From Brachycybe producta (Eukaryota > Arthropoda > Diplopoda > Playtdesmida > Andrognathidae), in the NCBI GenBank assembly GCA_036925085.1, contig JAUPFP010000057.1, positions 1-64,000 on the forward strand: DNA of 64,000 nt, read 5' to 3'. The notes under the pieces are model-generated. The model was not told the DNA's origin. It searched no databases and worked only from the letters and a program-made list of their open reading frames with translations. The translations under genes and the position numbers were made by a program. Shown here piece after piece: positions 1 through 63,067 of the stretch (position 1 is the first letter of the stretch; every line of letters starts with the position of its first letter).

Positions 1-254
1 CACCGGTCAGCCTGGCTTCAGTAGTAATTGAAATTACTGTATGTATAAAATATAATCTCTGTAAAAAAAACTTATTAAATAATAAATAAATAATAAATAT
101 TAACGAAATACCTATAAATAAATAATAAATATTAACAAAATACCTATAAATAAATTTAAATCATTAAATGATACCTGAAAATAAATTTAAGTCATTAAAT
201 GATATCTGAAAATAATTATTATATTAATAGTATCTAAAAAGAAATACATAAAAA
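1..254. other. AT-rich 3' flank with short direct repeats
   Basis: Non-coding AT-rich DNA downstream of the minus-strand gene. Two short units are each duplicated in tandem: one of about 35 bases built on AATAAATATTAAC (about 84-152) and one of about 30 bases built on AAATTTAAATCATTAAATGA (about 153-213). I see no convincing AATAAA on the minus strand here and no transposon end. Confidence 0.5.
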
Positions 255-892
255 TCACGTATTAAGCCAGGGAAAGTCGATTAACTCCTGATCAGTTGGT
301 TTGGAACCGGACAAGTAATCATAAGTTAGTTCAGTTCCAGGTTGTATATCTTTGTAAGCAAAAAACACAATTTTTGGCCTACCACCAAACGTCATCACCT
401 TTCCAATTAAATTGAAGTTCCACTTGGAGTGGTTGATGACTCTTCCAAAGGAGCCGTCATCAATGGTGGCGTCTATGGCTAAATGCTTTTCTCCATGTCT
501 GAAAAAGTGGACGTAGCACATCTCATTTCCTTTGTTGAGTTGACGCTCTCCATCCTTTCTTTCTTTTATTTCACCATTATAAGTAGTGACTATGTCTCCT
601 AAGCAAAACAAATAAAAATGAACAAATATTATTATTAAATTATTAACAAAGTATACCTTTTTTGAACAACTTTGTAGAAAAAACTCCACGGCCATGTGAA
701 TTTCCAATTACTAAACCAGGCCATGTGTTTTTTTGTACCTTTGCTTCAACATCATCACTGGATCTTTCGTCATCTGATGGGGCCCACAAGCATAAGCAAC
801 GCTTGACAATGTTTTCCGCCCTCGGCCATGCTCTCTTCGAAATTTCTTTTTTTATTTCTTCCATGGTTGGATTTATAGTACGTCTTCGAAAA
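255..892 (-). CDS. Exons 11-12: KMT5A-like SET domain
   Basis: Exon 11 (657-892) gives a short linker, a Cys/Trp-containing segment and the SET entry NSHGRGVFSTKLFKKG. Exon 12 (255-598) gives the catalytic core and the stop. Visible SET signatures are GRGV at the start, AIDAT, GRVINHSK (the NHS motif that binds S-adenosylmethionine), and ELTYDY with the catalytic tyrosine. It ends in FPWLNT, which parallels the HPWL ending of KMT5A/SET8. In KMT5A proteins this domain monomethylates histone H4 lysine 20. All key motifs are present, so activity is possible; the substrate here is unknown. There are no post-SET cysteines, as expected for the KMT5A group. Confidence 0.85.
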
Positions 893-3800
893 CTGAGAAT
901 CAAATAGTTAGAAACGCTATTTCAAAAAAAAGTACAAAAAATACTATTAAATTACATGGTAGAGTTCAGCAGCATGGCCCGTTGAATATCTTGCTGGTAA
1001 TACCACTTATTTCGAACACACCGAATAAGTGCAGTGTCCATTTGATGGCCAAACTTCACTTCCATTAATTGGGCAGCATCGTATGGAAATGAGCCATCAG
1101 GCCCACAAGGTAAGACCTGTAAAATAAATCTTTATGAAGCAATTATTACTTGCACAATTTATTGTGAAGTTACCTCTAAAAACCGGTGAGGTTTTAAAAC
1201 CTCCTCCAGAGGTAACAACTCCACTGGTTTCGTCGGTTCTGCAAATGAAATTCTTTTATTACTACCTACACATTTTCTTTTTTTTGGGTCAAGCTGGAAG
1301 TCGGTATCATCGTCATCATCCTGTATTTCACTGCATGCAGGTGGGTTTTTTTCATCTACTCCTGTTATGATATAAAATTACAAATTAAACTACAATTCAA
1401 TTTTTTATATAATTTTTAAGACTTACCCATTAAAGAAGATATTAACTTCCCACGCCTGCATATGGTGCTCGTTGTACCTGTGCGGTACCTTCTGACCGCC
1501 ATGGACTCTTGGTGAGATATGCCCTTACTGACTTCTTCTCGCAAAGTCAGGGGCAAGTCCTGAACCTTTGTCTGTAGAGCGTGGCGGGCTAGGGTTGCAT
1601 TCGCAGGGCACTTGAATTGTGAAGTGATCCTAGAAAAGCACAGAAACATTCCAGATATGTTGATAAAAATGTATAAGTTGTAAAACGTACCAATGAACTT
1701 GTTGGGATCCAGGAGATTTATTCCCTCTTGTATTGATGAAAAAATACTCATTTTTTCCATCTGGATCTACTTTTGACCTAACATAAGAAAGGTAATCCTG
1801 CATGTCTTTAAACTCTGTATCATTTAAAGAAAATCCTGCAGAGCATGTCCCCGACATCTTGTGCTCCTCCACTTGAACACCCCACGTCTGGGTTGTGTCA
1901 TCTCGTTTGCTGCACGCAAACTCCACAACCTTCAAATTGTCTGTTACTCCTGGCCTTTGAGCCATCAAACAAATCCTTGCGATGAGCATCCTAGAAAGTA
2001 ACCAGTATTAATACAAATAATCATTTTAGAGTAAGTTTTATTAATTTAAAATCATCAAACCTGGTGATTAGCATGTATTTGTTTACATGCATTTTCTGTC
2101 CCGCCTTAAAGTAGTCCATGGCCTCCCTAAACTCCTGTTGTCCCTTTTCGTCTGTCAGTAGTTTTGTTGCAGTCACTGGGTTTGGAACATTCTCCTCCAG
2201 AACAGCAACCTGGAACTTTCTTTTTCGGCGCTGTTTGTTCCCATATTTTTGGGCTCGTTCCCTCATTGTTTTGATGGCCGTCTTTATGTGCTGGATGTCA
2301 TCAAACAGTTGACGATCTAAATAAAAACATTTAAATGAATTATAAATTATAAAATGAATATTTTCACTGTGTTACCTTCAGTCCTCAAGTTTGTTCCCAC
2401 AGAAAGGAAGTCACAGTACGTTATGATCGACGTATAAAAGGTCTTCATGGCATCAGGAGTGACGATCCCATGGCTTTTGCGTAAAAATGCAATCCCTCGA
2501 TGTCTGTGAGGAGGCTTGTGGAAGGTGTCTTTAGTGGAATCTCTTTCTGGTTGTTGATATATTTTAGTAATCTGGATACATGATGGACCTTTGTTGTTCG
2601 GTGTCCTATAAAATAATTAGAAAAATAAATGGTTAAGTCAATGCACTACATACTTAAGTTTTGAAGATTAGAAACTTACGGTGGTCCTGGATGCCTTTGT
2701 CAGATCTCAAATACTCATCAAACTGTACGAAAAAGTCGTCATCGAACTTGAAATAAAGCCCTTGTTGTTGTAGTCTCCCTTTAGCTGAGTCTTTATTGTA
2801 GATTCGGTCATTTTCGCTGTCGCTGTCTACAGGAACATCCTCGTTTCTTTCAACTTGTTCTTTTGGTCGAATGATCTCGAATCCTAGATGGTCCAGGAGG
2901 TTTTCAACTTAAGGGAATAGATGAAAAAGTTTAGTGATGACTAAATACATGTCAAAGGTAAAAAAAATAAGTACCTCTTCTTCTGTATGTTTCTTCGCCA
3001 TACGTTCCTTTTTGTCTGTCAGTTTGTGTACTTTTTGTAGGTGTTGAGAAAGTCGTCCATGTGTTGCTTTTGGGGTATGCATATGTTACAGAAAATGTTT
3101 AAGCGTTTTTTGTTTGTTTGTTTTGGTATGTCTGGTTGGTTTTTTTCAGTGGTTTTCGGTGCGTCATGGTCAATGTCTAGTTCATTTTCTTGTATGTTGT
3201 TTGTGTCAATTTCGTTGTCATCATCATCGTTGTCATCGTCAAGTACATTGTCAAGTCCATCGTCATTGTTATCATTGTCATTGTCATCATCGTCATTGTT
3301 TTTGTCATGTTCATATTCGGGTATGTAGTCTTTGTCAATGAAGTCATCGTCATAATCATCAACATCATCCTCATCAGTCAGGTCTGTTTGGTGGTCAGTG
3401 TTAGTGTTGTAGTTGGTGTTGGCGTTGTATGTCTCAGTGTCATTTGGGTGTTGGTAATCAGTGTCATGTTGTAAGTTGTCATCGTGAGTGTCTGTTGTTG
3501 GTTCATCATTTGTTGTTTCTTTGTTGTTGTCGTTGTCATCATCTGAAATGGATAAACTCAAAGATTTTTGCATAATTAAATGTTTAACCTTTGGTGAGTT
3601 TTTCTTTTTTTCAGCTGATTGTCTCTTTTCTGATCTCTTTCTGCGTCTGGCTGATCTAGTCAGTTCAGCCTCTTTGCAGAAAAAGTCCGTCACTTTTCGT
3701 TCCTTGAGCTTCTTGTTCTTCTGAACAATCAACCAAGAAAAGATAAGATATATATGAAAAGATATATATGTAGAACAAAATGAATAAGTTAAAAAAGGAA

Positions 3801-4185
3801 AAGTAATTCTTACCACATGTTTCGAAGAAACTTCAAAAGCAGATGCCGAAGAACTGGCAGAAGCCCGCACAATCATAGGATCCTTGAGCAGATCCATTGC
3901 AGCAGTTAACTTTTAAATAAATTAAAATTAAAACTTGAATTAAATTACACAACAAAATAAGAATTATCACTATGACTCTTCAAGAGTATCATCAGAAATG
4001 AGTGACCAAGAAGAGACTAAAAACACGAGTGTTGATAAAGTAACCAAGTGACCAGGGAAATATGTTTGTTTTATGGAAGCTCCAAGAGTATCATAAAAAA
4101 TGAGTGACCAGGAAGGACATACAGATGGCAGAGAAAATAATGTTATCATAAATATGACTTTGACACTTACCTTCTTAGGTGCCAT
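255..4185 (-). CDS. 12-exon gene: recombinase-like domain fused to a KMT5A-like SET domain
   Basis: Exons by GT-AG junctions, in coding order: 4171-4185, 3814-3909, 2975-3720, 2680-2907, 2376-2605, 2061-2316, 1691-1990, 1427-1629, 1174-1361, 956-1116, 657-892, 255-598. Total about 3.0 kb, about 1000 codons. The start in exon 1 (MAPKK, then LTAAMDLLK in exon 2) keeps frame across the first junction; the internal ATG at 3897 is the alternative. Order of parts: Asp/Asn-rich tail with a possible zinc finger, a tyrosine-recombinase-like catalytic region, a PKKRK motif, and a SET domain. Phases agree across every junction from exon 5 to exon 12. In exons 3, 4 and 5 the open frame changes once each, every time as if one base were missing; this could be gene decay or consensus errors. 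Introns are about 55-100 bases, except intron 1 (261 bases), which holds a 105-bp direct duplication. Expected role, by inference only: a nuclear DNA-binding or recombining protein with a lysine-methyltransferase tail. Confidence 0.75.
956..1361 (-). CDS. Exons 9-10: acidic linker, nuclear localisation motif and unknown module
   Basis: Exon 9 (1174-1361) has an acidic run (IQDDDDDTDF) followed at once by DPKKRKCVG, which resembles a classical monopartite nuclear localisation signal. Exon 10 (956-1116) encodes a small module with GPDGSFPYDAAQLMEVKFG, conserved-looking but of unknown role. The junction to exon 11 splits an Ile codon and removes an in-frame stop that would follow if exon 10 were read through, which supports the splice. 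Confidence 0.65.
1427..2316 (-). CDS. Exons 6-8: tyrosine-recombinase-like catalytic region
   Basis: Exons 6 (2061-2316), 7 (1691-1990) and 8 (1427-1629) read as one frame. Exon 6 is a basic helical stretch. Exon 7 has AQRPG, matching the first catalytic arginine box of tyrosine recombinases, then VEEHKMSG, matching the beta-hairpin lysine. Exon 8 has NATLARH (second arginine), ISHQES (histidine box) and AVRRY (a tyrosine 8 residues after the histidine). The order R-K-R-H-Y and the spacing fit Crypton-type and phage-integrase-type enzymes, which cut and rejoin DNA through the tyrosine. This is a motif-level assignment; overall similarity to the family is weak by eye. Confidence 0.6.
2975..3720 (-). 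CDS. Exon 3: basic then Asp-rich region ending in a zinc-finger-like motif
   Basis: The exon opens with KNKKLKERK and a Lys/Arg-rich stretch (RSARRRKRSEKRQ), then runs for about 120 residues dominated by Asp and Asn with tandem DDD/NDN codons; on the plus strand this is a GTCATC-like simple repeat. Near its end IFCNICIP supplies a CxxC pair. A second frame supplies HGRLSQHLQKVH, the His end of a C2H2-like finger, so the two halves lie in different frames in this copy. The donor GAG/GTACTT closes the exon. The low-complexity region is probably disordered. Confidence 0.5.
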
Positions 4186-4454
4186 TTTAAAATATTCTTA
4201 ACAGAAAATTTGCAAATATAAAAATTTGAAAAATTCAATAGAATGTATGGTAAAAAATGATGACGAAATAGTTGGATGTTAACCGAATTACGTTAACGAT
4301 ATGTAAACGGTGAACAAAAAAACAAAAAACGTGATATTTAATGTACTATTAAAGGTGTAGCACTTCTGATTGTTGTGCATACTGACAGGCCACAAATTAC
4401 AAATTGATATAGAAAGATCTTTAGTTAAGAATATAAGGATATTTTTGTTTATTT
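4186..4454. promoter_or_regulatory. AT-rich upstream region of the SET/recombinase gene
   Basis: Lies directly 5' of the inferred start codon of the minus-strand gene and before the palindromic repeat block. It is AT-rich with no ORF and no clear TATA or initiator on the minus strand. It is called regulatory from position only. Confidence 0.25.
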
Positions 4455-5495
4455 AGAAAAATAGTCAAAAATTGCCACATTTGGCAATTTTTGTTGACGC
4501 AATTTTAATAAAATGGTGCATTGCTTAGCATTTGGCTGAAAAAAATGCCACATGTTACATTTTATCAGAAAAATGCTAGCATTTGGCTAGAAATGGGGCC
4601 ACATGTGGCACTCAATAAGAAAAATTCCAGCATTTGGCTGAAAAAGTGCCACATGTGGCACTCAATAAGCCAAATTCCAGCATTTGGCTGGAAAGTTTGC
4701 CACCAGTGGCACTGAAAAAGCCAAATGTCGGCCAAATGGCATGGAAAAGGTGCCACATGTGGCACTTAATCAACCAAACTCCAGCATTTGGCTGGTAAAT
4801 GTTCTATAGGCAGTCAACAGGCCAAATTCCAGCATTTGGCTGAAAAAGTGCCACATGTGGCACTCAATAAGCCAAATTCCAGCATTTGGCTGAAAAAGTG
4901 CCACATGTGGCACTCAATAAGCCAAATTCCAGCATTTGGCTGGAAAGTTTGCCACCAGTGGCACTGAAAAAGCCAAATGTCGGCCAAATGGCGTGGAAAA
5001 GGCGCCACATGTGGCACTTAATCAACCAAACTCCAGCATTTGGCTGATAAATGTTCTATAGGCAGTCATTATGCCAAATTCCAGCATTTGGCTGAAAAAG
5101 TGCCACATGTGGCACTCAATAAGCCAAATTCCAGCATTTGGCTGGAAAGTTTGCCACCAGTGGCACTGAAAAAGCCAAATGTCGGCCAAATGGCGTGGAA
5201 ATGATGCCACATGTGGCACTTAATCAACCAAACTCCAGCATTTGGCTGGTAAATGTTCTATAGGCAGTCAACAGGCCAAATTCCAGCATTTGGCTGAAAA
5301 AGTGCCACATGTGGCACTCAATAAGCCAAATTCCAGCATTTGGCTGAAAAAGTGCCACATGTGGCACTCAATAAGCCAAATTCCAGCATTTGGCTGGAAA
5401 GTTTGCCACCAGTGGCACTGAAAAAGCCAAATGTCGGCCAAATGGCGTGGAAAAGGTGCCACATGTGGCACTTAATCAACCAAACTCCACACATA
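4455..5495. repeat. Palindromic 50-bp tandem repeat with 202/252-bp super-units
   Basis: The basic unit is 50 bp; for example the GCCAAATTCCAGCATTTGGC motif recurs at 4821 and 4871. Each unit joins two dyads: GCCAAA...TTTGGC and the perfect 16-bp palindrome GTGCCACATGTGGCAC. A marker ATGTTCTATAGG recurs at 4799, 5051 and 5253, giving super-units of 252 and 202 bp that differ by one 50-bp unit. A degenerate first dyad (TTGCCACATTTGGCAA) sits near 4474. Small ORFs through this block follow the repeat and are not genes. Confidence 0.85.
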
Positions 5496-5856: not shown

Positions 5857-6801
5857 TGTGACACCCTGTAGAAACAGAAGGTGAAACACTTAAGTCAAAA
5901 TTCAGGCTTGACAGTAAGGCACCCCTTGGTGCACAGATGTTCGGACATGGGTGGCCCGAATTCTAGAGAATTTGTGGAACCAAGTCCGACCGTGAGAAAA
6001 TTGGAAATAAGTTCCAAGAATATTTCTGATTATGATTTAATATCCCCGGCCCAGGGCAATGATTGGCCCAGTGGTCAATCATTACGCCCTGAGGTGACAG
6101 TTGCCTCTCCCAGAAGACCGGACAATTAAGCCTGAGACTTGAGTGTGAGGACAGTCAGAGTTTAGACACTGAATAGGACAGTCAGAGTAGAGAGTTCAAA
6201 CTAGAGAGTTGTTCTTGAGAATTCAAGAAGTACCCTGAACCAGAGTCTAGAGTTCAGAGAGTAAAGATCTGACTTAGAGAATAATATTATGTAAAAGTAA
6301 TAATAATTATGTAATGAAGAGCAAGTAAAGAGTTATATTCAAAATACATAAACCAGTGTCATAATTGTGTATTTTGGATTATACAGTGCGTTTCATATAT
6401 AGAGACGCACCCCAAAAATTGGTTATAACTCGAGTTATAGTCGATGGATTCACCTGAAATTTTCAGCATAAAGAGATCATCTTATATTCTAAACTTTCTG
6501 CTAGGCAGAAATTTTTTTCTTTAAAAGGTAAAAATTAAAAAAATTAAAAACTGGAAAATGTCCGTTTCATAATTATAGATGCACTAATGAACTTTTCACT
6601 TTTATTAATTATTGTGAAAAAATAACATGCTGAATTATTAAAAATAGTAAGGTATACGACTGTTATGATGTTTCAAAACTTAAAACATTTTTTTTACAGA
6701 ATTAAACAATATTTATTAGCAAATTTACCGAAATTCTACTGAAAAGGAGCTAAAATGGCAATTTTCAGCTTTGATATTGTAGTATCATGATGGCAATCTG
6801 C

Positions 6802-7002
6802 TTAATCATCATGTACAATGATGTCCCAAACGTTTTCATCAGGATTTAAGTCCGGGAGACACGCCGGCCATTCGAGAGTGGTGATATTTTGGTTCCATAA
6901 CCATTCCTTCGTTAGGTTATTGGAGGAAACTGGGCCATTTTCTTGCTGGAATACTAAGCAAATGCTATAGAAGCGGTGTAATATGGCAGTACATACCCTC
7001 AT
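6802..7002 (-). pseudogene. Tc1-like transposase C-terminal fragment, left arm
   Basis: A 66-residue open stretch with FQQENGPVSS, matching the Tc1 motif FQQDNAPxH with the second catalytic Asp changed to Glu. It also has TKEWL, TLEWPACLPDLNPDENVWD (the PDLNPxE box with the third catalytic Glu kept) and a stop. It reads toward the left terminus, as a 3' end should. The upstream two thirds of the gene are absent. Confidence 0.85.
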
Positions 7003-7377
7003 AACATTGTCTGATAATCACTGATATTTATTTGGGTTGAAATAAATGCTAAGCTCGCGTTTCAAAAACTAAGCTGCTCGTTTGAAAGGCACTAAATGTT
7101 CCCCATAATATTAGGCTCTCCCACTGCCGAAATTTTGTTTAGGAAAATATTGTGCTTTTCTCGTAACATCCTTCCAATATGAAGAAAGAAAAAAAAACCG
7201 TCAGAATTATCGAGATTGAATTTTTTCACGCACTCAGATATGTCGGTGGTGGTGGCCTAACAATATGCGAAGTATTTAGCGCATTTGAACCAACCAAAAA
7301 ATAATGTTTATTATCAGACAATATTATGATAGTATTTACTGACATGCCAAAGTCGATTTCCTAGCATTAGCTTAGCA

Positions 7378-7520
7378 TTCGAGCAAGAAAATGCACCAGT
7401 TCGCTCCAGTAATCTAAGGAATCAATGGTTACGAAACCAGAATATCACCACTCTCGAATGGCCAGGGTGTCCCCGGACTTAAATCTTACAGAGAACTTTC
7501 GGGACAACATCATACAATAA
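7378..7520 (+). pseudogene. Tc1-like transposase C-terminal fragment, right arm
   Basis: An inverted, diverged counterpart of the left-arm fragment. EQENAPVRSS and RNQNITTLEWPGCP read in one frame; a one-base shift is then needed for PDLNLTENFRDNIIQ and the stop. It reads toward the right terminus. Too short for a normal ORF call, but the NITTLEWP string shared with the left arm makes the identity clear. Confidence 0.75.
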
Positions 7521-7947
7521 TGATTTACAGATTGCTATGATTATACTACAATAGCAGAGTTGAAAAGTCCCATTTTAGCTGTTTCGGGGTAGAATTTCTG
7601 CAAATTTGCTTATAAATATTGTTTAATTCTGTAAAAAAGAATGTTTTAAGTTTTGAAACATCATAACAGTTGTATACCTTACTATTTTTAATGATTCAGC
7701 ATGTTATTTTGTCACAATAATTAATAAAAGTGAAAAGTTCATTAGTGCGTATATAATTATGAAACGGTCATTTTCCAGTTTTTAATTTTTTTAATTTTTA
7801 CCTTTTAAAGAAAAAAATTTCTGCCTAGCAGAAAGTTTAGAATATAAGATGATCTCTTTATGCTGAAAATTTCAGGTGAATCCATTGACTATAATTCGAG
7901 TTATAACCAATTTTTGGTGTGCGTCTATATATATGAAACGCACTGTA

Positions 7948-8329
7948 TTGGGTTTCTGTACTCCTAAAATAGAGGAGTATCCAGCAGAAGGTACTCAGAC
8001 ACAACCTGAGTCCCTCTGCCTGGAGCCTCCAGCAACTCAACAAAAAGGACTAGAGTTCCTTCGGCATCGTCACGCCTATATCCAAAGATCCCTAGGAAAG
8101 ACGGTCTTTTTGTGGGCCGTGCCAGGCGAGGCAAGTAAATGTCACGCCCGGTGAACCCAACCCCCAGAGGTTCAACAACAGTAGAGGCTGGTCCGCAGCA
8201 GTCGACAACAGAGTCGACCCCGGCACCACCGATTCAGCAGAGGGAACAACGTCGTCAACGAGGACAAAGCTCCTCACGCATCGTCGGTAATGGAGCCAAA
8301 GGTACAAGAGGTGGGCCAGTCGCGTCACA
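7948..8329 (+). other. GC-richer right part of the interrupted LTR
   Basis: Follows the fold-back element and holds no recognisable gene. Composition changes abruptly at about 8330 from near 50% GC to the AT-rich satellite. Short ORFs here show no family signature. Confidence 0.4.
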
Positions 8330-9679
8330 CAAAGCAATAATTAACAAAAAACGATACATTTCGTTTTTAATTAACAAACAAAGAAAAAAAACGTGGTTTT
8401 CACAAAAGGCAACATAACCAAAAAACTACTAGAGATATTTTGAAACTGATTTTAACAGTGTGTTCAGAATCAAAAAATCTATAAGAATCAGTAAAAAATT
8501 CATTTGTTAGTTAAAGTAAATCTAACAATAATTAACAAAAAAAAATACATTTCGTTTTTAATTAACAAACAAAAAAAAATGTGGTTTTCACAAAATGTAA
8601 CATAACCAAAAAACTACTTGAGATATTTTGAAACAGATTTCACCAGTGTGTTCAGAATCAAAAAATCTATAAGAATCAGTAAGAAATTCATTTTTTAGTT
8701 AAAGTAAATCTAACAATAATTAACAAAAAACGATACATTTCATTTTTAATTAACAAACAAAGAAAAAAAACGTGGTTTTCACAAAATGCAACATAACCAA
8801 AAATCTATTTGAGATATTTTGAAATTGATTTCAACAGTGTGTTCAGAATCAAAAAAATCTATAAGAATCAGTAAGAAATTCATTTTTTGGTTAAAGTAAA
8901 CCTAACAATAATTAAGAAAAAAATGATACATTTTGTTTTTAATTAACAAACAAAGAAAAAAACATGGTTTTCACAAAATGTAACATAACCAAAAAACTAC
9001 TTGAGATATTTTGAAACTGATTTAAGCAGTGTGTTCAGAATCAAAAAATCTATAAGAATCTGTAAGAAATTCATTTTTTTGTTAAAGTAAACCTTACAAT
9101 AATTAACAAAAAACGATACATTTCGTTTTTAATTAACAAACAAAAAAAAAAACGTGGTTTTCACAAAATGTAACATAACCAAAAAACTACTTGAGATATT
9201 TTAAAACATATTTCACCAGTGTGTTCAGAATCAAAAAAGCTATAAGAATCTGTAAGAAATTCATTTTTTTGGTTAAAGTAAACCTAACAATAATTAACAA
9301 AAACGATACATTTCGTTTTTAATTAACAAACAAAAAAAAAAACGTGGTTTTCACAAAATGTAACATAACCAAAAAACTACTTGAGATATTTTAAAACAGA
9401 TTTCACCAGTGTGTTCAGAATCAAAAAATCTGTAAGATTCTGTAAGAAATTCATTTGTTAGTTAAAGTAATTATTAACAAAGCAATAATTAACAAAAAAC
9501 GATATATTTCGTTTTTAATTAACAAACAAAGAAAAAAAACGTGGTTTTCACAAAATGCAACATAACCAAAAAACTACTTGAGATATTTTGAAACTGATTT
9601 CACCAGTGTGTTCAGAATCAAAAAATCTATAAGAATCAGTAAGAAATTCATTTTTTTGTTAAAGTAAACCTAACAATAA
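8330..9679. repeat. Satellite array, left block (about 7 monomers)
   Basis: Tandem monomers of about 188-191 bp. Landmarks in order: AATAATTAAC, AAAAACGATACATTTCG, a variable A-rich stretch, GTGGTTTTCACAAAATG, CTACTTGAGATATTTTGAAA, CAGTGTGTTCAGAATC, TTAGTTAAAGTAAATC. It begins at the end of the LTR on its left and is cut at 9679 by LTR element A. Confidence 0.95.
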
Positions 9680-9818
9680 TGTAACACCCTGTAAATCGTG
9701 ATCCCGCCAAAACCATAGCCTGGGGGGTAAACAACTCTCAACCGTCCCTCCCTCCTCTCTGACTCACCTTTCTGACTCATGCCCAAGTGGCGGATTGATA
9801 CATAAAGGACCATGGTCA

Positions 9819-9867
9819 CTTGGACCTGGTTACACCTCGCAGGTGTACACAGGTCCAAGGTATAAAA
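9819..9867 (+). promoter_or_regulatory. 41-bp dyad plus TATA box in the 5' LTR
   Basis: Arms CTTGGACCTG (9819-9828) and CAGGTCCAAG (9850-9859) are perfect inverted repeats. Inside them TACACCT (9831-9837) and AGGTGTA (9841-9847) pair around CGC. TATAAAA follows one base later. This is the likely core promoter, with a symmetric factor site. The same dyad is present in the 3' LTR (18618-18658) and in element B (62401-62441). Confidence 0.7.
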
Positions 9868-9999
9868 GGACCATGTTCCTCTTTGTTCCTCAGTTCTTTC
9901 CTTTGCCTGTTTTTGCGATACATTCCAAATCATGGGCCTGAGGATTTCCAGTTAGTATTTTACTATTCACCCTTGTATCTGTACTTCTTACAAGGAATG

Positions 10000-10005
10000 A
10001 ATAAA
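10000..10005 (+). terminator. Poly(A) signal AATAAA in the 5' LTR
   Basis: AATAAA lies 139 bases after the TATA box, in the order expected for the U3-R boundary of an LTR. The copy in the 3' LTR (at 18799) would end the element's own transcript. Confidence 0.55.
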
Positions 10006-10369
10006 AGTGTTGTAATAAGAAGTAGCGTTGTCTCTATGTCTTTATGCTAATAACTTCTCTTCAGAGGCCGGAGGTTTCATAGGGCAGGAGCTATACGATT
10101 CTCAGCAGCTACAACATCTTCTCTAGTCGGAATACCGATGGAGAAGATGTATATCAGCATCAACCGGAAGAGAGAGAGATGGCCGCCACTCTCCTGCATT
10201 GATTTCACCCCCATGCAGAAGAGTGACTACAATCTATCTCCATCCAGCTCTCTCTACAGCTCGGATCTTCTCTGTGCAGGTGTCATACTGCTCAGAGAAG
10301 AAACGAAAAGTAGAAAATGTCATCGAAAGGTTGGTAATAAAATATTGGTTGATGTCAAAAGCTCACATT

Positions 10370-10387: not shown

Positions 10388-10483
10388 TAGCTCCATCTGC
10401 CTTCTCCGACCTGTAAACAGAAGCCGTCCTTTGTCCTAAGTCTCGTGATTGTGCCTCACGAGGCTTCGTCCGTCCTTTCTATG

Positions 10484-10840
10484 TTGGAGCCACGTATGGA
10501 GACCCTCGATAGCGTCAAAGTCAACCGCGTGGCGCCTGTATGTAAAACCGCGTATGGAGACCCTCGATCACGTCAAAGTCAACCGCGCGGCGTCCTTTGT
10601 GTTGGAACCACGTGTGGAGACTCTCGATAGCGTCAAAGTCGACCACGTGGCGCCTTTGTAAAACCGCGTATGGAGGCCCTCGATCACGTCAAAGCCAACC
10701 GCGCGGCGTCCTTTGTGTTGGAACCACGTATGGAGGCCCTCGATAGCGTCAAAGCCAACCGCGTGGCGCCTTTTTATGTTGGGATCATGTATGGAGGCCC
10801 TCGATCACGTCAAAGCCAACCGCATGGTACCGTTTTTGTG
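10484..10840 (+). repeat. Leader tandem repeat, about six ~59-bp units
   Basis: Units start at CGTATGGAGACCCTCGAT or a variant (10493, 10551, 10611, 10668, 10726, 10788), with spacing 57-62 bp. The units alternate between GATAGCGTC and GATCACGTC types, so the original step may be a pair. The period is not a multiple of three, which argues against a coding repeat. Confidence 0.85.
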
Positions 10841-12695
10841 GAATCGCGAAAGAGACTTGTGGCTACACACACCACGTGTCGACCGCGCGATTCTGTGTCC
10901 TGTCCTTAGAGACACGTGGGAACGAACTTTTGTCTGCTGACCGCTTAGCACTCGGAAAGTGGACAACCGTTTGGACACACGTGTTTCCGTCCGTGTTTTT
11001 GTATTTCATGTTTCCATTACAATCACCCACTGTCACCTTCACTCTTCTTTAATTTTCAAAGTGAAACCCACACCACGTGGGCAACACTTTAAACAAATTC
11101 TTCTTACTCTCCGAGAGGAGTTTGCAGTCTCATTATGAGATGAGCAAACAAATCTCATCTACTAATCTATTCATCTATTAATAGGCTTTTAAAGGACGTG
11201 TGTGTCTTTTAAAATGTCCTATTATCTTCACTCTTCATCTTTAATTTTCAAGCAAGATTCTCCCTAACTCTATCTCATTGTTAGGGGGCTTACAAGCTTA
11301 AAACACACTTTTTCTAGCCACGTGGGACTTTCTTGTCCCCCCTTTTCTTTGTTCTTTGTTTTTACACTTGTGTTTCCCTTGGGACCACTATGTCCCAAGT
11401 CATGTTCTTCAGTTTCTTCATCATCATCACCTCAATGCATCATCACATGAACTTTCTCCATTGGACAGCTCTGAAGCCCGGCCGCCATCTTGGATCGACC
11501 GGACACTCTTCAAAAAGCGCCAACGGAGCGGTTTTTCGCTCCATGTGACTCATTGTTGTACCTTCTCTCATCTTTTTGTGTTCTCTTCTCTTCTCTTCTC
11601 TTCCAGAGGGTTGCACTCACGCGCCCCCTGGCGGAGTTCCTCTTGTTAGAGAAAACTTCTCTTTTTCTTTGAATTTTCTCTCTTTTTGTGTCTTTCTCCT
11701 GGCCACCATAAAAACGTGCCCCGGAGGAACTTTTCAATCATCAATTTTTGGACATTGCAATAAACTGAACCGGAAGTGGCCACCTCAGCGCCACCTACGG
11801 ACTTCTTCCTTCTACTCAACATAGTCCCTCACTGGGCACTGACTCTGTCTTTTCATCCAGAGCCATCCAGCAGTGAGGACTCAAAATTTCTCCAGTCTGA
11901 ACATTTCTTCTGGTTCACCAAGTATTTATCTTGTTGAACACACTTCAATTTCTACACTGTTTTACTGTTTTAATAAAACTAAATTAAAACTTTTGATGTG
12001 CGGGCACCGCACCTAAGTTTTAAACTTTCCAAGTAAAACAGCTTTCTTCTTTTGCTTTCAGGAGAGTTCAGCCATCTTGAACTTCTCCTTTGTTTGTGCA
12101 TTTAAAAAGTTCAGCCATCTTGAACTTTTTATTCTTGTGTGTTCTTTACACACACACTCTTCATTTCTAATTCACTTTCCGCAGTGCAATTTCGATTGGG
12201 TGGTGTACCACGCTCGAGGTTGTATTGTACATCTGCTGTTTCTTTATTGAGGTTTTTGGAATTCTCATAACCTCCACGTGGTCGCCAAATACCACGTGTC
12301 GAGAGAGATCCTTCTAAAATCTGACACTCAATAAAGAACTCATGACGCTACACCAGTTGGGAACCAAAACTCGTCACACGCCCAACTGAGAACACGATAC
12401 AACCATCACCACACTAACGGAGTGAACGGCCACTTCGTTATACATGTCACAAGCTTAGGTAATCTATCGTTACTCAGTGTATAAGAGTACGATAGTGTCG
12501 GTTGCCGACAAGCACTAAATTACCGACGCACAGTGACAACACCGACCTACAAACTGAACGAGTCCCATCATACTGGAACCGAAAAGTATAGCTCAGAGTG
12601 TACTCGAGAACCCTCGGAGCTGCACACAACGACTTGGACTTCGCCGGACTCGTTCATCACCGCACATTCACATTACACAAGCCACTTCATTAATC
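10841..12695 (+). other. Rest of the element A leader, non-coding
   Basis: About 1.85 kb without a supported gene. It contains many CACGTG hexamers, a GCCGCCATCTTGGAT stretch (11480-11494) that matches the known YY1 consensus, and the twin stem-loops listed separately. A leader this long before gag is unusual but known in non-autonomous LTR elements. Confidence 0.6.
12060..12130 (+). other. Twin stem-loops with the same loop
   Basis: Hairpin 2 is perfect: AAAAAGTTCA (12104-12113) pairs with TGAACTTTTT (12121-12130) around GCCATCT. Hairpin 1 (12060-12089) has GTTCA/TGAAC around the same GCCATCT and near-complementary AGGAGA/TTCTCCT flanks. Both lie about 600 bases before gag, where LTR elements often hold packaging or dimer signals. 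Confidence 0.65.
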
Positions 12696-14447
12696 ATGGC
12701 TACCTCACACGACAATACGGGGTCCCTGTCTGATCACCAGGGTTCGCACGAAGATCTGTTGGAAGTACCCGTGACTACTGATGTGACACCACCGCCGCGG
12801 CCGACTGGGGCCGAGTTTGACCACCTGTCACAACAAGTGGCTGCACTCTCGACTCGTATGTCTCAGTTCATAGACGACCGATTCACACCGAATCGACCGA
12901 CTACACCACGGCGGACAACACGCACACACCGACTTCGCGACGATGACTCGGACGCCTCTTCAGCCCCCTATGTTGGCTACAGAGAGCGTCACGATCGTTA
13001 CGAAAGACATTACACACCGCACACACGTCATCTACCGCGTAACCCTGACTGGCAACAACAAGGGCAGTCAGATGATCCGCGTCACAGAGATGAGCGTGCG
13101 GAAATACCGATCACGACACGTGCTGATTCTCCTCACTCGCTTGTCCGGGTTGCACGTAGCGGTCGCCGCTCGACACCCCCGGAACAACAGCCTAGCCAAG
13201 GAGCGACACAAGGCACTTCAGTTTACGCGCCACGTTTTCCACCTCAAGGGGTAGGTCTGATGCCGGCTGGAATGTCAAACGTCCAGGATGGCATCTATCG
13301 ACCAACCCCCAGAGAACCCTCCGTGGAAGAATTCAATAAGAAATACAGCGGTCGCCACCCAGCCGACTCAATCCAAAAATTCAACGGATTGACAGGTTTC
13401 CGTCCCTTCCTGGAAGAATTCGAGGAAGTGGCACACCTGTACGGTTGGAAAGACCACCACAAGGAGGAATACATCACGGGGTGTTTCACTGGGGCCGCCC
13501 GTACGTGGCTGAGTAAACTAAGGTATGAGCTTCAGGACATTCCTTGGCCAGCACTGAGAGTACAGATGGTAGATACGTTCGGGAAACCGAACGAACTGGC
13601 CATCTTGGAGAAAAAGTATACAGAGATGCTCCAGAAGGAAGGTGAGAGTACACAAGCTTTCATCTGGGAGTTTATGATACTCGGCGACCGAGTTTACCCG
13701 CAACTTGATGATCAGCTACGTATAAGCCAGTTGCGCCGCGCTCTACATCCCACCATACAGAACGCCGCGCATCACGCATCTACGACGTCGTTCAAGGACT
13801 TCGCAAACGCCGTCCTCAATATGGAGGTGGTCTTGCTGTCCTTGGATAAATGGCCTACGGAACCAAAACCCGCAGCTGATTCACAGTCGGGTAAAGGAGC
13901 ATCGAAGACCGACCAGGAGCCGGCGGCAGCCGCCAGCCCTAAAGACAAACCACACCGGTCTAGGCATGATAAAAAGCCTAGTCAGACTGCTGCCACCAAT
14001 TCAAACCGACACTCTGCAGCGGACCCACAACCAGAGACCACTCGCACGTTCGACAAGAGTAAGTCGACGTGTTATAATTGTGGCAAACTGGGGCATTTCG
14101 TCCGTGAGTGTCGGCAACCGAAGAAGAAGGTTGCAATCAAGCAGTTTGGGGAGCCGGTTACCGACTATGACATCAAAGGAGAGGTGCCTGAAACGGATAT
14201 CATCACCGAAGACGGCATTGAGTTTGCCCTGATAAGAGTGGCGGGACAAATCCGCCGGATCCCTCTTCCAGCAGCAGACTCAGCCGCCGGAGCACCTCCT
14301 CCTGACACATCCGACAATGACAGCTCTGACCACTCTGAGGACATACCAATCAAAGTGCTCGACCGAGCTCCTGCACACAAATGGACCTCGGGCGAGCCGA
14401 TCAAGTGGCCACCCACGCTGTCAAGAAACCAAACGCGACGAAAATAA
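12696..14447 (+). CDS. gag: gag of element A, Ty3/gypsy-like, 583 aa
   Basis: An uninterrupted ORF with ATG in good context (ATCATGG). Residues 1-225 are Pro/Arg/Asp-rich and probably disordered. About 226-385 matches the retrotransposon Gag capsid pattern: IQKFNG, ARTWLSKL, then a Gln/Ser-rich helix before RALHP. About 386-455 is a charged linker. At 459-472 lies a CCHC zinc knuckle, CYNCGKLGHFVREC (CX2CX4HX4C), which binds RNA. An acidic tail follows. The product should form the capsid and bind element RNA in the cytoplasm. No protease or reverse transcriptase follows in any frame. Confidence 0.9.
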   Translation: MATSHDNTGSLSDHQGSHEDLLEVPVTTDVTPPPRPTGAEFDHLSQQVAALSTRMSQFIDDRFTPNRPTTPRRTTRTHRLRDDDSDASSAPYVGYRERHDRYERHYTPHTRHLPRNPDWQQQGQSDDPRHRDERAEIPITTRADSPHSLVRVARSGRRSTPPEQQPSQGATQGTSVYAPRFPPQGVGLMPAGMSNVQDGIYRPTPREPSVEEFNKKYSGRHPADSIQKFNGLTGFRPFLEEFEEVAHLYGWKDHHKEEYITGCFTGAARTWLSKLRYELQDIPWPALRVQMVDTFGKPNELAILEKKYTEMLQKEGESTQAFIWEFMILGDRVYPQLDDQLRISQLRRALHPTIQNAAHHASTTSFKDFANAVLNMEVVLLSLDKWPTEPKPAADSQSGKGASKTDQEPAAAASPKDKPHRSRHDKKPSQTAATNSNRHSAADPQPETTRTFDKSKSTCYNCGKLGHFVRECRQPKKKVAIKQFGEPVTDYDIKGEVPETDIITEDGIEFALIRVAGQIRRIPLPAADSAAGAPPPDTSDNDSSDHSEDIPIKVLDRAPAHKWTSGEPIKWPPTLSRNQTRRK

Positions 14448-18076: not shown

Positions 18077-18478
18077 GGCCAGGTCCGGCGGGATTACCCC
18101 CCCGTACGGTTCATGGACCCAGGATCCTCCCCACCCTCCGCAGCAGGGATAGCTGCGCGCCACATGTACTCATGTGGTTGCCACCCATCCGGGTGGCATT
18201 ATCGAAAAATTTATAAAAAATAAAATACGTTGCAACTGTTCTTTTCTTTTTAGATTTCAATAGCGGCTCGCCACTCAGCGAGCATTAATTATCTTTGTTT
18301 TATGTTTTCAGCCTTTTCCAATTTTTAAGGGCGCTGACACTTCGGTGCCAGTGCCTTTCCATAACCACCTCTGTACACGGTAAGTCCTCAGCCACCCATG
18401 TCTCCCCGCTGCGTAACTTGAAAACCTTCCACCCTTGGCTGGAGTACGAGGACGTACTCCAAGCAAAGTTGGAGGGTA
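18077..18478 (+). other. 3' region of element A with three stem-loops and a polypurine tract
   Basis: Perfect hairpins: CCACATG/CATGTGG around TACT (18160-18177), TGCCACCC/GGGTGGCA around ATCC (18179-18198) and GCTCGC/GCGAGC around CACTCA (18266-18283). A purine-rich AAAGTTGGAGGGTA directly precedes the 3' LTR and fits a polypurine tract. TTTTCAG at about 18307 and CACGGTAAGT at about 18378 resemble a splice acceptor and donor. Confidence 0.6.
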
Positions 18479-19166
18479 TGTAACACCCTGTAAATCGTGA
18501 TCCCGCCAAAACCATAGCCTGGGGGGTAAACAACTCTCAACCGTCCCTCCCTCCTCTCTGACTCACCTTTCTGACTCATGCCCAAGTGGCGGATTGATAC
18601 ATAAAGGACCATGGTCACTTGGACCTGGTTACACCTCGCAGGTGTACACAGGTCCAAGGTATAAAAGGACCATGTTCCTCTTTGTTCCTCAGTTCTTTCC
18701 TTTGCCTGTTTTTGCGATACATTCCAAATCATGGGCCTGAGGATTTCCAGTTAGTATTTTACTATTCACCCTTGTATCTGTACTTCTTACAAGGAATGAA
18801 TAAAAGTGTTGTAATAAGAAGTAGCGTTGTCTCTATGTCTTTATGCTAATAACTTCTCTTCAGAGGCCGGAGGTTTCATAGGGCAGGAGCTATACGATTC
18901 TCAGCAGCTACAACATCTTCTCTAGTCGGAATACCGATGGAGAAGATGTATATCAGCATCAACCGGAAGAGAGAGAGATGGCCGCCACTCTCCTGCATTG
19001 ATTTCACCCCCATGCAGAAGAGTGACTACAATCTATCTCCATCCAGCTCTCTCTACAGCTCGGATCTTCTCTGTGCAGGTGTCATACTGCTCAGAGAAGA
19101 AACGAAAAGTAGAAAATGTCATCGAAAGGTTGGTAATAAAATATTGGTTGATGTCAAAAGCTCACA
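18479..19166 (+). repeat. 3' LTR of element A
   Basis: 688 bp and no difference from the 5' LTR by eye, including the dyad (18618-18658), TATA box and AATAAA. It is followed by ATAA and the satellite. Confidence 0.93.
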
Positions 19167-48700: not shown

Positions 48701-50558
48701 CAAACAAAAAAAATCATTGTTTTCACAAAATGTAACATACCCATAAAACTACTTGAGATATTTTGAAACTAATTTCACCAGTGTGTTCAGAATCAAAAAA
48801 TCTATAAGAATCTGTAAGAAATTCATTTTTTGGTTAAAGTAAACCTAACAATAATTAACAAAAAAACGATACATTTCGTTTTTAATTAACAAACAAAGAA
48901 AAAAACATGGTTTTTACAAAATGTAACATAACCAAAAAACTACTTGAGATATTTTGAAACTGATTTCAGCAGTGTGTTCAGAATCAAAAAATCTATAAGA
49001 TTCTGTAAGAAATTCATTTGTTAGTTAAAGTAAATCTAACAATAATTAACAAAAAATGATACATTTCGTTTTTAATTAACAAACAAAAAAAATCATTGTT
49101 TTCACAAAATGTAACATACCCATAAAACTACTTGAGATATTTTGAAACTGATTTCACCAGTGTGTTCAGAATCAAAAAATCTATAAGAATCTGTAAGAAA
49201 TTCATTTTTTAGTTAAAGTAAACCTAACAATAATTAACAAAAAAATGATACATTTCGTTTTTAATTAACAAACAAAAAAAATCATTGTTTTCACAAAATG
49301 TAACATACCCATAAAACTACTTGAGATATTTTGAAACTGATTTCACCAGTGTGTTCAGAATCAAAAAATCTATAAGAATCTGTAAGAAATTCATTTTTTG
49401 GTTAAAGTAAACCTAACAATAATTAACAAAAAAACGATACATTTCGTTTTTAATTAACAAACAAAAAAAAAACATGGATTTTACAAAATGTAACATAACC
49501 AAAAAACTACTTGAGATATTTTGAAACTGATTGAAGCTGTGTTCAGAATCAAAAAATCTATAAGAATCAGTAAGAAATTCATTTGTTAGTTAAAGTAAAT
49601 CTAACAATAATTAACAAAAAACGATACATTTTGTTTTTAATTAACAATGAAAAAAACGTGGTTTTCACAAAATGTAACATAACCAAAAAACTACTTGAGA
49701 TATTTTTAAACTGATTTTACCAGTGTGTTCAGAATCAAAAAATCTGTAAGAATCTGTAAGAAATTCATTTGTTAGTTAAAGCAAATCTAACAATAATTAA
49801 CAAAAAACGATACATTTGGTTTTTAATTAACAAACAAAGAAAAAAACATGGTTTTCACAAAATGTAACATAACCAAAAAACTACTTGAGATATTTTGAAA
49901 CTGATTTCAGTTGTGTGTTCAGAATCAAAAAATCTATAAGAATCAGTAAGAAATTCATTTGTTAGTTAAAGTAAATCTAACAATAATTAACAAAAAACGA
50001 TACATTTCGTTTTTAATTAACAAACAAAAAAAAATGTTGTTTTCACAAAATGTAACATAACCATAAAACTACTTGAGATATTTTGAAACTGATTTCACCA
50101 GTGTGTTCAGAATCAAAAAATCTATAAGAATCTTTAAAAAATTCATTTTTTGGTTAAAGTAAACCTAACAATAATTAACAAAAAAACGATACATTTCGTT
50201 TTTAATTAACAAACAAAGAAAAAAACGTGGTTTTCACAAAATGTAACATAACCAAAAAACTACTTGAGATATTTTAAAACATATTTCACCAGTGTGTTCA
50301 GAATCAAAAAAGCTATAAGAATCTGTAAGAAATTCATTTTTTTGGTTAAAGTAAACCTAACAATAATTAACAAAAACGATACATTTCGTTTTTAATTAAC
50401 AAACAAAAAAAAAACGTGGTTTTCACAAAATGTAACATAACCAAAAAACTACTTGAGATATTTTAAAACAGATTTCACCAGTGTGTTCAGAATCAAAAAA
50501 TCTGTAAGATTCTGTAAGAAATTAATTTGTTAGTTAAAGTAATTATTAACAAAGCAAT

Positions 50559-51326
50559 CATCATTTCCTGTACCTTATCCCGCAAGCAGCAGGGTCGGCC
50601 TTGCTGGTTCTAACTCTCCACTCGTTCCGATTTTGCACCAAGCCCCCAGTGACCCCACATGCCACCATATCCCGTTTTACTACCACATCCCAGGTTTGCT
50701 TGGGTCTTCCTCTACCCCGTTTTATTCCCAGGTCTAAGTTCATTGCCTGTCTCAGCAGCCCATCTTCTCCACTCCTGAGGACATGCCCAAACCACCGCAG
50801 CCTATTTTCCTGCATCTTTTCTACTATATTTGTTACCCCTACACTACCCCTAATAAAAACATTTCTGATCCTATCCCTTCTGGTCACCCCACTCATAAAC
50901 CTTAGCATTCTCATCTCAGCTACCTGCATTCTATCCTCATGCACCTTCTTGATTGCCCAACATTCTGACCCATACAACATAGCTGGTCTGACTACTGTTC
51001 TATAAAACTTTCCCTTCAATTTTATAGGTAACTTCCTGTCACATAAAACCCCACTAGCCTGCCTCCACCTATGCCAACCTGCTTTTATCCGGTTAGTGAT
51101 GTCTAAGTCTAAGCTCCCATCATCTTGCAGCACAGATCCTAAATATTTGAAGTCATGCACCTGCTGCATTAAACTGTCCCCAAGTCTAATCCCCTCATTC
51201 AACTGTTCTTTCCCATCCCACTGAAATTTCATGTACTCCGTTTTTGCCCTACTTATTATCAACCCCTTTGATTCCAAGGCATTCCTAGTCTCCTCTAACC
51301 TTATCTCGAGTTCCAATTTGGATTCC
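50559..51326 (-). mobile_element. 5'-truncated RTE-type LINE fragment
   Basis: A minus-strand ORF ends at 50561 and is open over the whole fragment; the ORF begins a few codons inside satellite by chance. The product is the C-terminal part of a non-LTR reverse transcriptase polyprotein: GLIISRAKTEYM, FKYLGSVLQDDGS, YRTVVRPAMLYGSECWA, AEMRMLRFMSGVTRRDRIRN and RLRWFGHVLR, all typical of RTE-like LINEs. The polymerase catalytic centre and the endonuclease are missing. The stop codon overlaps a TGATG-type tail, as in elements of this kind with almost no 3' UTR. No target duplication is seen. Confidence 0.9.
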
Positions 51327-54300
51327 GTGGTTTTCACAAAATGTAACATAACCAAAAAACTACTTGAGATATTTTGAAACTGATTTCAGCTGTGTGTTCA
51401 GAATCAAAAAATCTATAAGAATCAGTAAGAAATTCATTTTTTGGTTAAAGTAAACCTAACAATAATTAAGAAAAAAACGATACAATTTGTTTTTAATTAA
51501 CAAACAAAGAAAAAAACATGGTTTTCACAAAATGTAACATAACCAAAAAACTACTTGAGATATTTTGAAACTGATTTAAGCAGTGTGTTCAGAATCAAAA
51601 AATCTATAAGAATCAGTAAGAAATTCATTTGTTAGTTAAAGTAAATCTAACAATAATTAACAAAAAAATGATACATTTGGTTTTTAATTAACAAACAAAG
51701 AAAAAAACATGGTTTTCACAAAATGTAACATAACCAAAAAACTACTTGAGATATTTTGAAACTGATTTCAGCTGTGTGTTCAGAATCAAAAAATCTATAA
51801 GAATCAGTAAGAAATTCATTTGTTAGTTAAAGTAAATCTAACAATAATTAACAAAAAATGATACATTTCGTTTTTAATTAACAAACAAAAAAAATCATTG
51901 TTTTCACAAAATGTAACATACCCATAAAACTACTTGAGATATTTTGAAACTAATTTCACCAGTGTGTTCAGAATCAAAAAATCTATAAGAATCTGTAAGA
52001 AATTCATTTTTTGGTTAAAGTAAACCTAACAATAATTAACAAAAAAACGATACATTTCGTTTTTAATTAACAAACAAAGAAAAAAACATGGTTTTTACAA
52101 AATGTAACATAACCAAAAAACTACTTGAGATATTTTGAAACTGATTTCAGCAGTGTGTTCAGAATCAAAAAATCTATAAGATTCTGTAAGAAATTCATTT
52201 GTTAGTTAAAGTAAATCTAACAATAATTAACAAAAAATGATACATTTCGTTTTTAATTAACAAACAAAAAAAATCATTGTTTTCACAAAATGTAACATAC
52301 CCATAAAACTACTTGAGATATTTTGAAACTGATTTCACCAGTGTGTTCAGAATCAAAAAATCTATAAGAATCTGTAAGAAATTCATTTTTTGGTTAAAGT
52401 AAACCTAACAATAATTAACAAAAAAATGATACATTTCGTTTTTAATTAACAAACAAAAAAAATCATTGTTTTCACAAAATGTAACATACCCATAAAACTA
52501 CTTGAGATATTTTGAAACTGATTTCACCAGTGTGTTCAGAATCAAAAAATCTATAAGAATCTGTAAGAAATTCATTTTTTGGTTAAAGTAAACCTAACAA
52601 CAATTAACAAAAAAACGATACATTTCGTTTTTAATTAACAAACAAAAAAAAAAACATGGATTATACAAAATGTAACATAACCAAAAAACTACTTGAGATA
52701 TTTTGAAACTGATTGAAGCTGTGTGTTCAGAATCAAAAAATCTATAAGAATCAGTAAGAAATTCATTTGTTAGTTAAAGTAAATCTAACAATAATTAACA
52801 AAAAACGATACATTTTGTTTTTAATTAACAATGAAAAAAACGTGGTTTTCACAAAATGTAACATAACCAAAAAACTACTTGAGATATTTTTAAACTGATT
52901 TTACCAGTGTGTTCAGAATCAAAAAATCTGTAAGAATCTGTAAGAAATTCATTTGTTAGTTAAAGTAAATCTAACAATAATTAACAAAAAACGATACATT
53001 TGGTTTTTAATTAACAAACAAAGAAAAAAACATGGTTTTCACAAAATGTAACATAACCAAAAAACTACTTGAGATATTTTGAAACTGATTTCAGTTGTGT
53101 GTTCAGAATCAAAAAATCTATAAGAATCAGTAAGAAATTCATTTGTTAGTTAAAGTAAATCTAACAATAATTAACAAAAAACGATACATTTCGTTTTTAA
53201 TTAACAAACAAAAAAAAATGTTGTTTTCACAAAATGTAACATAACCATAAAACTACTTGAGATATTTTGAAACTGATTTCACCAGTGTGTTCAGAATCAA
53301 AAAATCTATAAGAATCTTTAAAAAATTCATTTTTTGGTTAAAGTAAACCTAACAATAATTAACAAAAAAACGATACATTTCGTTTTTAATTAACAAACAA
53401 AGAAAAAAACATGGTTTTTACAAAATGTAACATAACCAAAAATCTACTTGAGATATTTTGAAATTGATTTCAACAGTGTGTTCAGAATCAAAAAATCTAT
53501 AAGAATCAGTAAGAAATTCATTTTTTGGTTAAAGTAAACCTAACAATAATTAAGAAAAAAACGATACAATTTGTTTTTAATTAACAAACAAAGAAAAAAA
53601 CATGGTTTTCACAAAATGTAACATAACCAAAAAACTACTTGAGATATTTTGAAACTGATTTCAGCAGTGTGTTCAGAATCAAAGAATCTATAAGAATCAA
53701 TAAGAAATTCATTTGTTAGTTAAAGTAAACCTAACAATAATTAACAAAAAAACGATACATTTCGTTTTTAATTAACAAACAAAGAAAAAAACATGGTTTT
53801 TACAAAATGTAACATAACCAAAAAACTACTTGAGATATTTTGAAACTGATTTCAGCATTGTGTTCAGAATCAAAAAATCTATAAGATTCTGTAAGAAATT
53901 CATTTGTTAGTTAAAGTAATTATTAACAAAGCAATAATTAACAAAAAACGATATATTTCGTTTTTAATTAACAAACAAAGAAAAAAAACGTGGTTTTCAC
54001 AAAATGCAACATAACCAAAAAACTACTTGAGATATTTTGAAACTGATTTCAGCAGTGTGTTCAGAATCAAAAAATCTATAAGAATCAGTAAGAAATTCAT
54101 TTGTTAGTTAAAGTAAATCTAACAATAATTAACAAAAAAATGATACATTTGGTTTTTAATTAACAAACAAAGAAAAAAACATGGTTTTCACAAAATGTAA
54201 CATAACCAAAAAACTACTTGAGATATTTTGAAACTGATTTCAGCTGTGTGTTCAGAATCAAAAAATCTATAAGAATCAGTAAGAAATTCATTTGTTAGTT

Positions 54301-62261: not shown

Positions 62262-62943
62262 TGTAACACCCTGTAAATCGTGATCCTGCCAAAACCATAG
62301 CCTGGGGGGTAAACAACTCTCAACCGTCCCTCCCTCCTCTCTGACTCACCTTTCTGACTCATGCACAAGCGGCGGATTGATACATAAAGGACCATGGTCA
62401 CTTGGACCTGGTTACACCTCGCAGGTGTACACAGGTCCAAGGTATAAAAGGACCATGTTCCTCTTTGTTCAGAAGTTCTTTCCTTTGCCTGTTTTTGAGA
62501 TACATTCCAAATCATGGGCCTGAGGATTCACAGTTAGTATTTTACTATTCACCCTTGTATCTGTACTTCTTACAAGGAATGAATAAAAGTGTTGTAACAA
62601 GAAGTAGCGTTGTCTCTATGTCTTTATGTTAATAACTTCTCTTCAGAGGCCGGAGGTTTCATAGGGCAGGAGCTATACGATTCTCAGCAGCTACAACATC
62701 TTCTCTGGTCGGGATACCGATGGAGAAGATGTATATCAGCATCAACCGGAAAAGAGAGAGATGGCCGCCACTCTCCTGCATCGATTTCACCCCCATGCAG
62801 AAGAGTGACTACAATCTATCTCCATCCAGCTCTCTTCTGGATCATCTCTGTGCAGGTGTCATACTGCTCAGAGAAGAAACGAAAAGTAGAAAATGTCATC
62901 TAAAGGTTGGTAATAAAATATTGGTTGATGTCAAAAGCTCACA
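62262..62943 (+). repeat. 5' LTR of element B
   Basis: 682 bp, TG...CA, followed by TTTGGTGGAGG as in element A. The TATA box is at 62443 and AATAAA near 62583. Confidence 0.9.
62401..62449 (+). promoter_or_regulatory. Conserved 41-bp dyad plus TATA box in element B
   Basis: Identical to the dyad of element A, although the surrounding LTR has changed, which suggests constraint before this copy inserted. Confidence 0.65.
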
Positions 62944-63067
62944 TTTGGTGGAGGTGCGGGGTATAGCTCCATCTGCCTTCTCCGACCTGTAAACAGAAGC
63001 CGTCCTTTGTCCTAAGTCTCGTGATTGTGCCTCACGAGGCTTCGTCCGTCCTTTCTATGTTGGAGCC

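Follow-up and report, generated by a model that had tools for sequence, protein, structure and literature searches.

A decayed copy of a recombinase-SET gene family in the millipede Brachycybe producta, probably of transposon origin

Does a gene that joins a tyrosine-recombinase-like region to a KMT5A-type SET domain belong to a mobile element, or is it a domesticated gene of its host? The question is raised by a locus at the start of contig C57 (JAUPFP010000057.1) of the millipede Brachycybe producta, whose genome assembly (GCA_036925085.1) comprises 295,300,729 bases in 442 contigs. The window analysed here is the first 64,000 nucleotides of that contig (C57:1-64000), and the gene occupies its minus strand, with twelve exons spanning positions 4185-255. 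A preliminary description of this DNA had proposed the recombinase-methyltransferase fusion and had offered two origins for it, a Crypton-like mobile element or a domesticated one. In our view the gene is probably a decayed member of a transposon family that has introns, uses a tyrosine recombinase and has captured a KMT5A-type SET domain.

The fusion can be followed without interruption through exons 6-12 (2316-255), where all six introns have GT-AG borders, the phases fit and an open frame of 561 amino acids contains no stop. The recombinase-like region begins in exon 5 (2376-2605) and continues through exon 6 (2061-2316), exon 7 (1691-1990), which holds the first arginine (AQRPG) and the lysine (EEHK), and exon 8 (1427-1629), which holds the second arginine (TLARHA), the histidine (ISHQ) and the tyrosine (RRY). 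Exon 9 (1174-1361) encodes an acidic linker with a PKKRK stretch that, by eye, resembles a nuclear localization signal. A conserved module that has no Pfam match fills exon 10 (956-1116) and ends in exon 11 (657-892), where the SET domain starts; exon 12 (255-598) carries the KMT5A-type SET core up to the stop. Every motif named in the preliminary description (AQRPG, EEHKMSG, TLARHA, ISHQ, RRY, PKKRK, NHSK and ELTYDY) is present on the minus strand. Upstream lie exon 4 (2680-2907), exon 3 (2975-3720), with an acidic stretch and a CCHH zinc finger, and exon 2 (3814-3909), which has a 94% counterpart at C1:14.038. Exon 1 (4171-4185; MAPKK) is putative and was placed from a donor site and our own reading. 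On the other side, within the 3' region (1-254), the contig start falls just inside the beginning of a 3' fold-back block that is known from other copies.

The clean splicing claimed earlier thus holds for exons 6-12 and fails for the gene as a whole: exons 3 and 5 each shift frame internally, and the phases of exons 3 and 4 do not match. A copy on contig C1 (L009, C1:8.434) is 97% identical to window positions 1-3795, introns included, and its homology ends at 3795. Compared with it, the window copy has lost short stretches of exons 3 and 5; the C1 copy has an altered exon 4 donor and no counterpart of exons 1 and 2. The window copy is decayed and no longer encodes the whole protein, and intactness is established for neither of the two.

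The same arrangement recurs elsewhere in the genome. A search with exons 6-8 gave 155 matches which, among the matches listed, were of two kinds. The first kind matched exon by exon; 15 such loci were fetched, including the window, with a few further matches left out and some loci cut by the range of the fetched DNA. At 11 of the 15 loci exon 12 lies downstream of the recombinase exons, and the order is that of the window. Exons 10 and 11 were seen at C1:7.831 and C1:5.549, and neither these nor exon 12 at C1:8.142 and C1:8.031. Intron places and phases match at many family loci. Decay is widespread: 11 of 15 loci have in-frame stops, and among the stop-free ones (the window, C1:8.434, C1:7.627 and the fragment C1:8.031) the first three have other lesions. 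These sequences support a single family protein in which a CCHH zinc finger and a tyrosine-recombinase-like core would be united with a SET domain of the KMT5A type.

The SET domain is the most readily identified part of this protein. In the window it matches Pfam SET (E = 1e-15), and all 14 top rows of the PDB search were KMT5A/SETD8 (best E = 1.1e-18), which bears out the full KMT5A-type domain described earlier; the KMT5A-type marks NHS, YDY and PWL are present. Of the 23 SET matches found genome-wide, six belong to the SET-recombinase family. A separate host KMT5A is present at L003, its SET core 61% identical to the human one. In a tree of 15 SET sequences, five family members form a clade (100/99), as do three fish sequences (94/95) and two KMT5A sequences (99/98), with no resolved order among the three groups. 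Given the separate host gene and the family's own clade, orthology of the family SET to KMT5A is not supported.

Some fish proteins combine the same parts. Searching with the protein of exons 6-12 returned two fish SET proteins, and the exon 10-12 region returned 23 proteins (P0003-P0025), all from loaches (Misgurnus and Paramisgurnus) and including several isoforms; nine LOC numbers occur among the names listed, and the database labels them uncharacterized. All 23 have a CCHH finger and R, K, R and H/Y motifs (chosen by eye), and 22 have the full SET start, P0025 being the exception. As in the millipede family, a SET domain of KMT5A type occurs together with a CCHH finger and R/K/R/H/Y residues in an H-x8-Y and TxxR context; the loach proteins differ in that their SET domain is N-terminal rather than C-terminal and has VND..H in place of the window's NHS.

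The second kind of match to exons 6-8 is intronless, with 23-26% identity over nearly the entire query (best E = 1.8e-17). Its representative at L042 encodes 665 amino acids that include a CCHH finger but lack a SET domain. The 3' end of this element is fixed, with 67 matches at up to three mismatches against none in the reversed control. The sequence ...CCTATGAC ends the element in 16 junction rows, which represent 13 flanks (those of L074 and L080 are near-identical), and TT follows directly in 15 of the 16, L075 being the exception. Eukaryotic large-subunit (LSU) rRNA sequence adjoins the element in two of three loci scanned (L042 and L064, not L041). The 5' end could not be fixed, the DNA upstream of the chosen start being common to copies as well. 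At L042, a tandem array of its own with about 125-bp spacing lies ahead of the 3' end (3030-4841). No relatives of the intronless protein were found in viral contigs or phage records. Judged by these features, the intronless C2H2-recombinase element is a mobile relative of the SET-bearing family.

Comparison of the two kinds also illuminates the recombinase-like part. In an alignment of eight intronless and eight intron-containing proteins the R-K-R-H-Y residues stand in register, with individual copies missing some. The consensus drawn from the eight intronless rows together with the three better ones with introns shows agreement in 87 of 328 columns; 54 columns are near-invariant, and the R-K-R-H-Y residues are all among them. 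Their spacing (R1-K 32, R1-R2 103, R2-H 24, H-Y 9) may be set beside that of lambda Int (23/99/22/9) and Cre (28/119/23/9), and shuffling the 54 conserved residues reproduced a canonical spacing in 17 of 20,000 trials.

Selection was gauged from the ratio of nonsynonymous to synonymous change (dN/dS) in 20 chosen pairs, stop codons skipped; for exons 6-8, dS was obtained for 15 pairs, and five between-subfamily pairs were saturated. The ratio for exons 6-8 was 0.05-0.30 in 14 of the 15 measurable pairs, and for the SET domain six pairs within the window's subfamily gave 0.08-0.25, with 0 in the near-identical pair. Together with the values for the newest copies and a second subfamily, given below, these ratios indicate that the recombinase has been constrained throughout, the SET domain clearly so only in the window's subfamily, and that the newest copies are drifting. 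On balance, the fusion proposed earlier is supported by exon order at 11 of 15 loci, low dN/dS and the mobile relative; the part that falls away is clean splicing of the gene as a whole.

The copies are also accompanied by characteristic repeats. Ahead of the window copy lies a tandem array of about 17 palindrome-containing units of some 50 bp (4526-5489), and related arrays precede C1:14.038, C5:2.651 (31 units) and C1:7.627 (five units). On the 3' side, the fold-back block has folding z scores of -3.6 and -6.5; its core pattern has 18 matches at up to one mismatch against none in the control, and all seven exact matches are at family copies. At C1:14.038 the DNA past this block differs. Behind the fold, the sequence at five of seven family copies resembles the window's satellite (66-78%, in gene sense), with tandem arrays reported at four of them; two lack it, and controls gave none (0/7 loci, 0/8 shuffles). 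The satellite itself, with units of about 190 bp, occupies 19157-62268 and is broken at 50543-51327; its likeness to the element's 3' repeats suggests that the element is a possible source of it. One-mismatch fold cores away from fetched copies occur at G000:C1:6025135, C3:10839176 and C41:89242, and no satellite match was found at L052. Rfam gave no convincing match to the window or the 3' fold.

Several observations count against the transposon reading. No intact copy was shown among the 15 fetched loci, and the window copy has the frame shifts and phase mismatch described above. All five recombinase residues are kept at four of the 15 loci (the window, C1:8.434, C1:14.038 and C5:2.651). The window and its 97% copy differ neutrally, with recombinase dN/dS of 1.5-2.0; exons 6-8 give 2.0 on eight changes. 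The second subfamily has SET dN/dS of 0.30-0.62 in six pairs and carries GFG in place of the SET GRG. Neither an empty site nor a target duplication was demonstrated for the SET-bearing family, and 13 of the 15 loci lie on C1, an outcome that segmental duplication could produce. The last two points, together with the roughly 12 exons and the low dN/dS, favour the main rival, a host gene family that descends from a domesticated recombinase-SET fusion, was spread by segmental duplication, chiefly within a single chromosome, and is now largely decaying. This is unlikely in our estimate, yet it deserves more weight than any other alternative. Copies also occur on C5 and C57, with unfetched matches on C3, the family has its own repeat arrays and 3' fold, and the DNA beyond the 3' block differs at C1:14.038. 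The better copies, moreover, retain their catalytic residues (all five at four loci, the window included), unlike the domesticated Crypton genes with DUF3504, which lose them according to the available part of PMC3212892. Of the two origins offered earlier, a mobile element seems a better fit than a single domesticated gene, owing to the many copies, their decay, their own arrays and the 3' fold.

The recombinase assignment has its own adverse evidence. The kind of profile search suggested in the preliminary description gave no match: Phage_integrase of Pfam matched neither the window nor the intronless proteins, nor anything in the whole genome, while the control was positive in 14 of 14 genomes. 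Scans of Pfam, PHROGs and PDB returned no recombinase for this part, a protein search with the exon 4-8 region found 0 of 2850 candidates at E values up to 10, and hhalign gave no support for lambda Int, Cre or the loach proteins, so that kinship between the loach and window recombinases is not significant in profile comparison. The AlphaFold model of a loach protein (predicted local distance difference test score, pLDDT, 32) was unusable. The histidine of the HxxR motif is missing, with threonine three positions before the second arginine in the window, in the intronless L042 protein and in loach P0003. The lack of profile and structural support and the missing histidine would suit a different kind of DNA-binding protein of a transposon, in which the R-K-R-H-Y pattern arose by chance; the fusion to SET would still be real. 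We regard this as improbable: the five residues are kept with canonical spacing between families about 26% alike, and the intronless relative has a fixed 3' end. The profile tests fail and the model is unusable, which leaves residues, spacing and behaviour as the basis for calling this part a tyrosine recombinase.

That adjoining recombinase and SET genes are united only by the exon model of the preliminary description is very improbable; the model is known here from genomic DNA alone, and C1:8.142 runs through exon 9 and then into exon 2 of another copy, but order, intron places and phases repeat at many loci, exons 8-12 are stop-free in the window and annotated loach proteins contain both parts. 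We rated the transposon reading above each of these alternatives: two separate genes, a motif arisen by chance and a single domesticated gene.

If the family is a transposon, each part of its protein could have a role. The zinc finger might bind the 5' palindromic repeats, and the tyrosine would cut and rejoin DNA, allowing the element to leave and enter sites. The SET domain may methylate chromatin, on H4K20 or a different lysine, where the element leaves or enters a site; the element would thereby help to shape the chromatin environment of its own integration or persistence.

Other features of the window and genome were noted in passing. Two direct repeats of 683 bp (9679-10361 and 18478-19160), 100% identical, enclose a gag-like open reading frame (ORF) with a CCHC knuckle (12558-14447), and we assign them on sequence to a young long terminal repeat (LTR) retrotransposon within the satellite; a 95% relative occupies 62260-64000. 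Tandem arrays of about 60 bp occur in the LTR-type stretches (10480-10827 and 63058-63404). A minus-strand ORF within the satellite (50561-51385) resembles, by eye, a non-LTR reverse transcriptase, and an inverted repeat of about 640 bp with 88% identity lies at 6381-7018 and 7310-7948. A COX1-like stretch in a nuclear contig (G000:C1:12697416-12698753), close to the copy on C442, is either nuclear mitochondrial DNA or a misassembly. COX1 is read with genetic code 5, in which AGA means serine, as expected for an invertebrate.

Among known systems, Cryptons share the use of a tyrosine recombinase for mobility. The available part of PMC3212892 describes animal Cryptons (groups A and I) as having no C-terminal domain, and extra domains (C48 peptidase, DDE) in other groups. 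The family here differs in its C-terminal SET, finger, roughly 12 exons, tandem arrays and threonine at the HxxR histidine, and the suggested Crypton-like membership was not borne out. The C2H2 tyrosine recombinases of endogenous nimaviruses look closer by analogy. In the portion of PMC10871703 consulted, these and related decapod proteins include multi-exon and 28S rDNA-inserting examples, with five of seven key residues located. The likeness extends to a C2H2 finger ahead of the recombinase core, multi-exon genes and, here, a 28S-inserting relative; no virus was seen in our case, and the two are likened by description rather than sequence kinship. The terms 'methyltransferase', 'KMT5A' and 'SET domain' are absent from the main text of PMC10871703.

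A broader pattern is conceivable, and we advance it tentatively as less likely than its opposite: the union of C2H2 finger, tyrosine recombinase and KMT5A-type SET could be a mobile 'chromatin-writing integrase' that recurs among animals. It would have been put together on two or more occasions, with SET at the C-terminus here and at the N-terminus in loaches, or else have undergone a single permutation. If so, the KMT5A-like expansions of Hydractinia (65 genes), Hydra (24) and sea urchin (61), reported in the accessible part of PMC10368294, would be transposons methylating H4K20 where they insert or excise. Where stated there, their SET is mostly N-terminal, and similar C-terminal parts occur in Hydractinia and sea urchin; 'recombinase' and 'integrase' do not appear in its main text. 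Compared by description, these expansions are a lead only, for which the millipede family supplies a testable cause of otherwise unexplained cnidarian and sea urchin gene numbers.

Among the matches listed for licensed PMC papers, in titles and the starts of abstracts, none joined a KMT5A-type SET to a tyrosine recombinase. Fusions of a SET domain with a transposition enzyme are already known from SETMAR, which contains a DDE transposase. A recombinase family that carries a KMT5A-type writer while it moves and decays would represent a further way for mobile DNA to acquire chromatin enzymes. As far as the available accounts describe it, SETMAR (Metnase) resembles the family in joining SET to such an enzyme, but that fusion is found in primates and its mariner transposase is inactive, whereas the millipede loci make up a multi-copy family in which a SET domain of KMT5A type is joined to a recombinase-like core.

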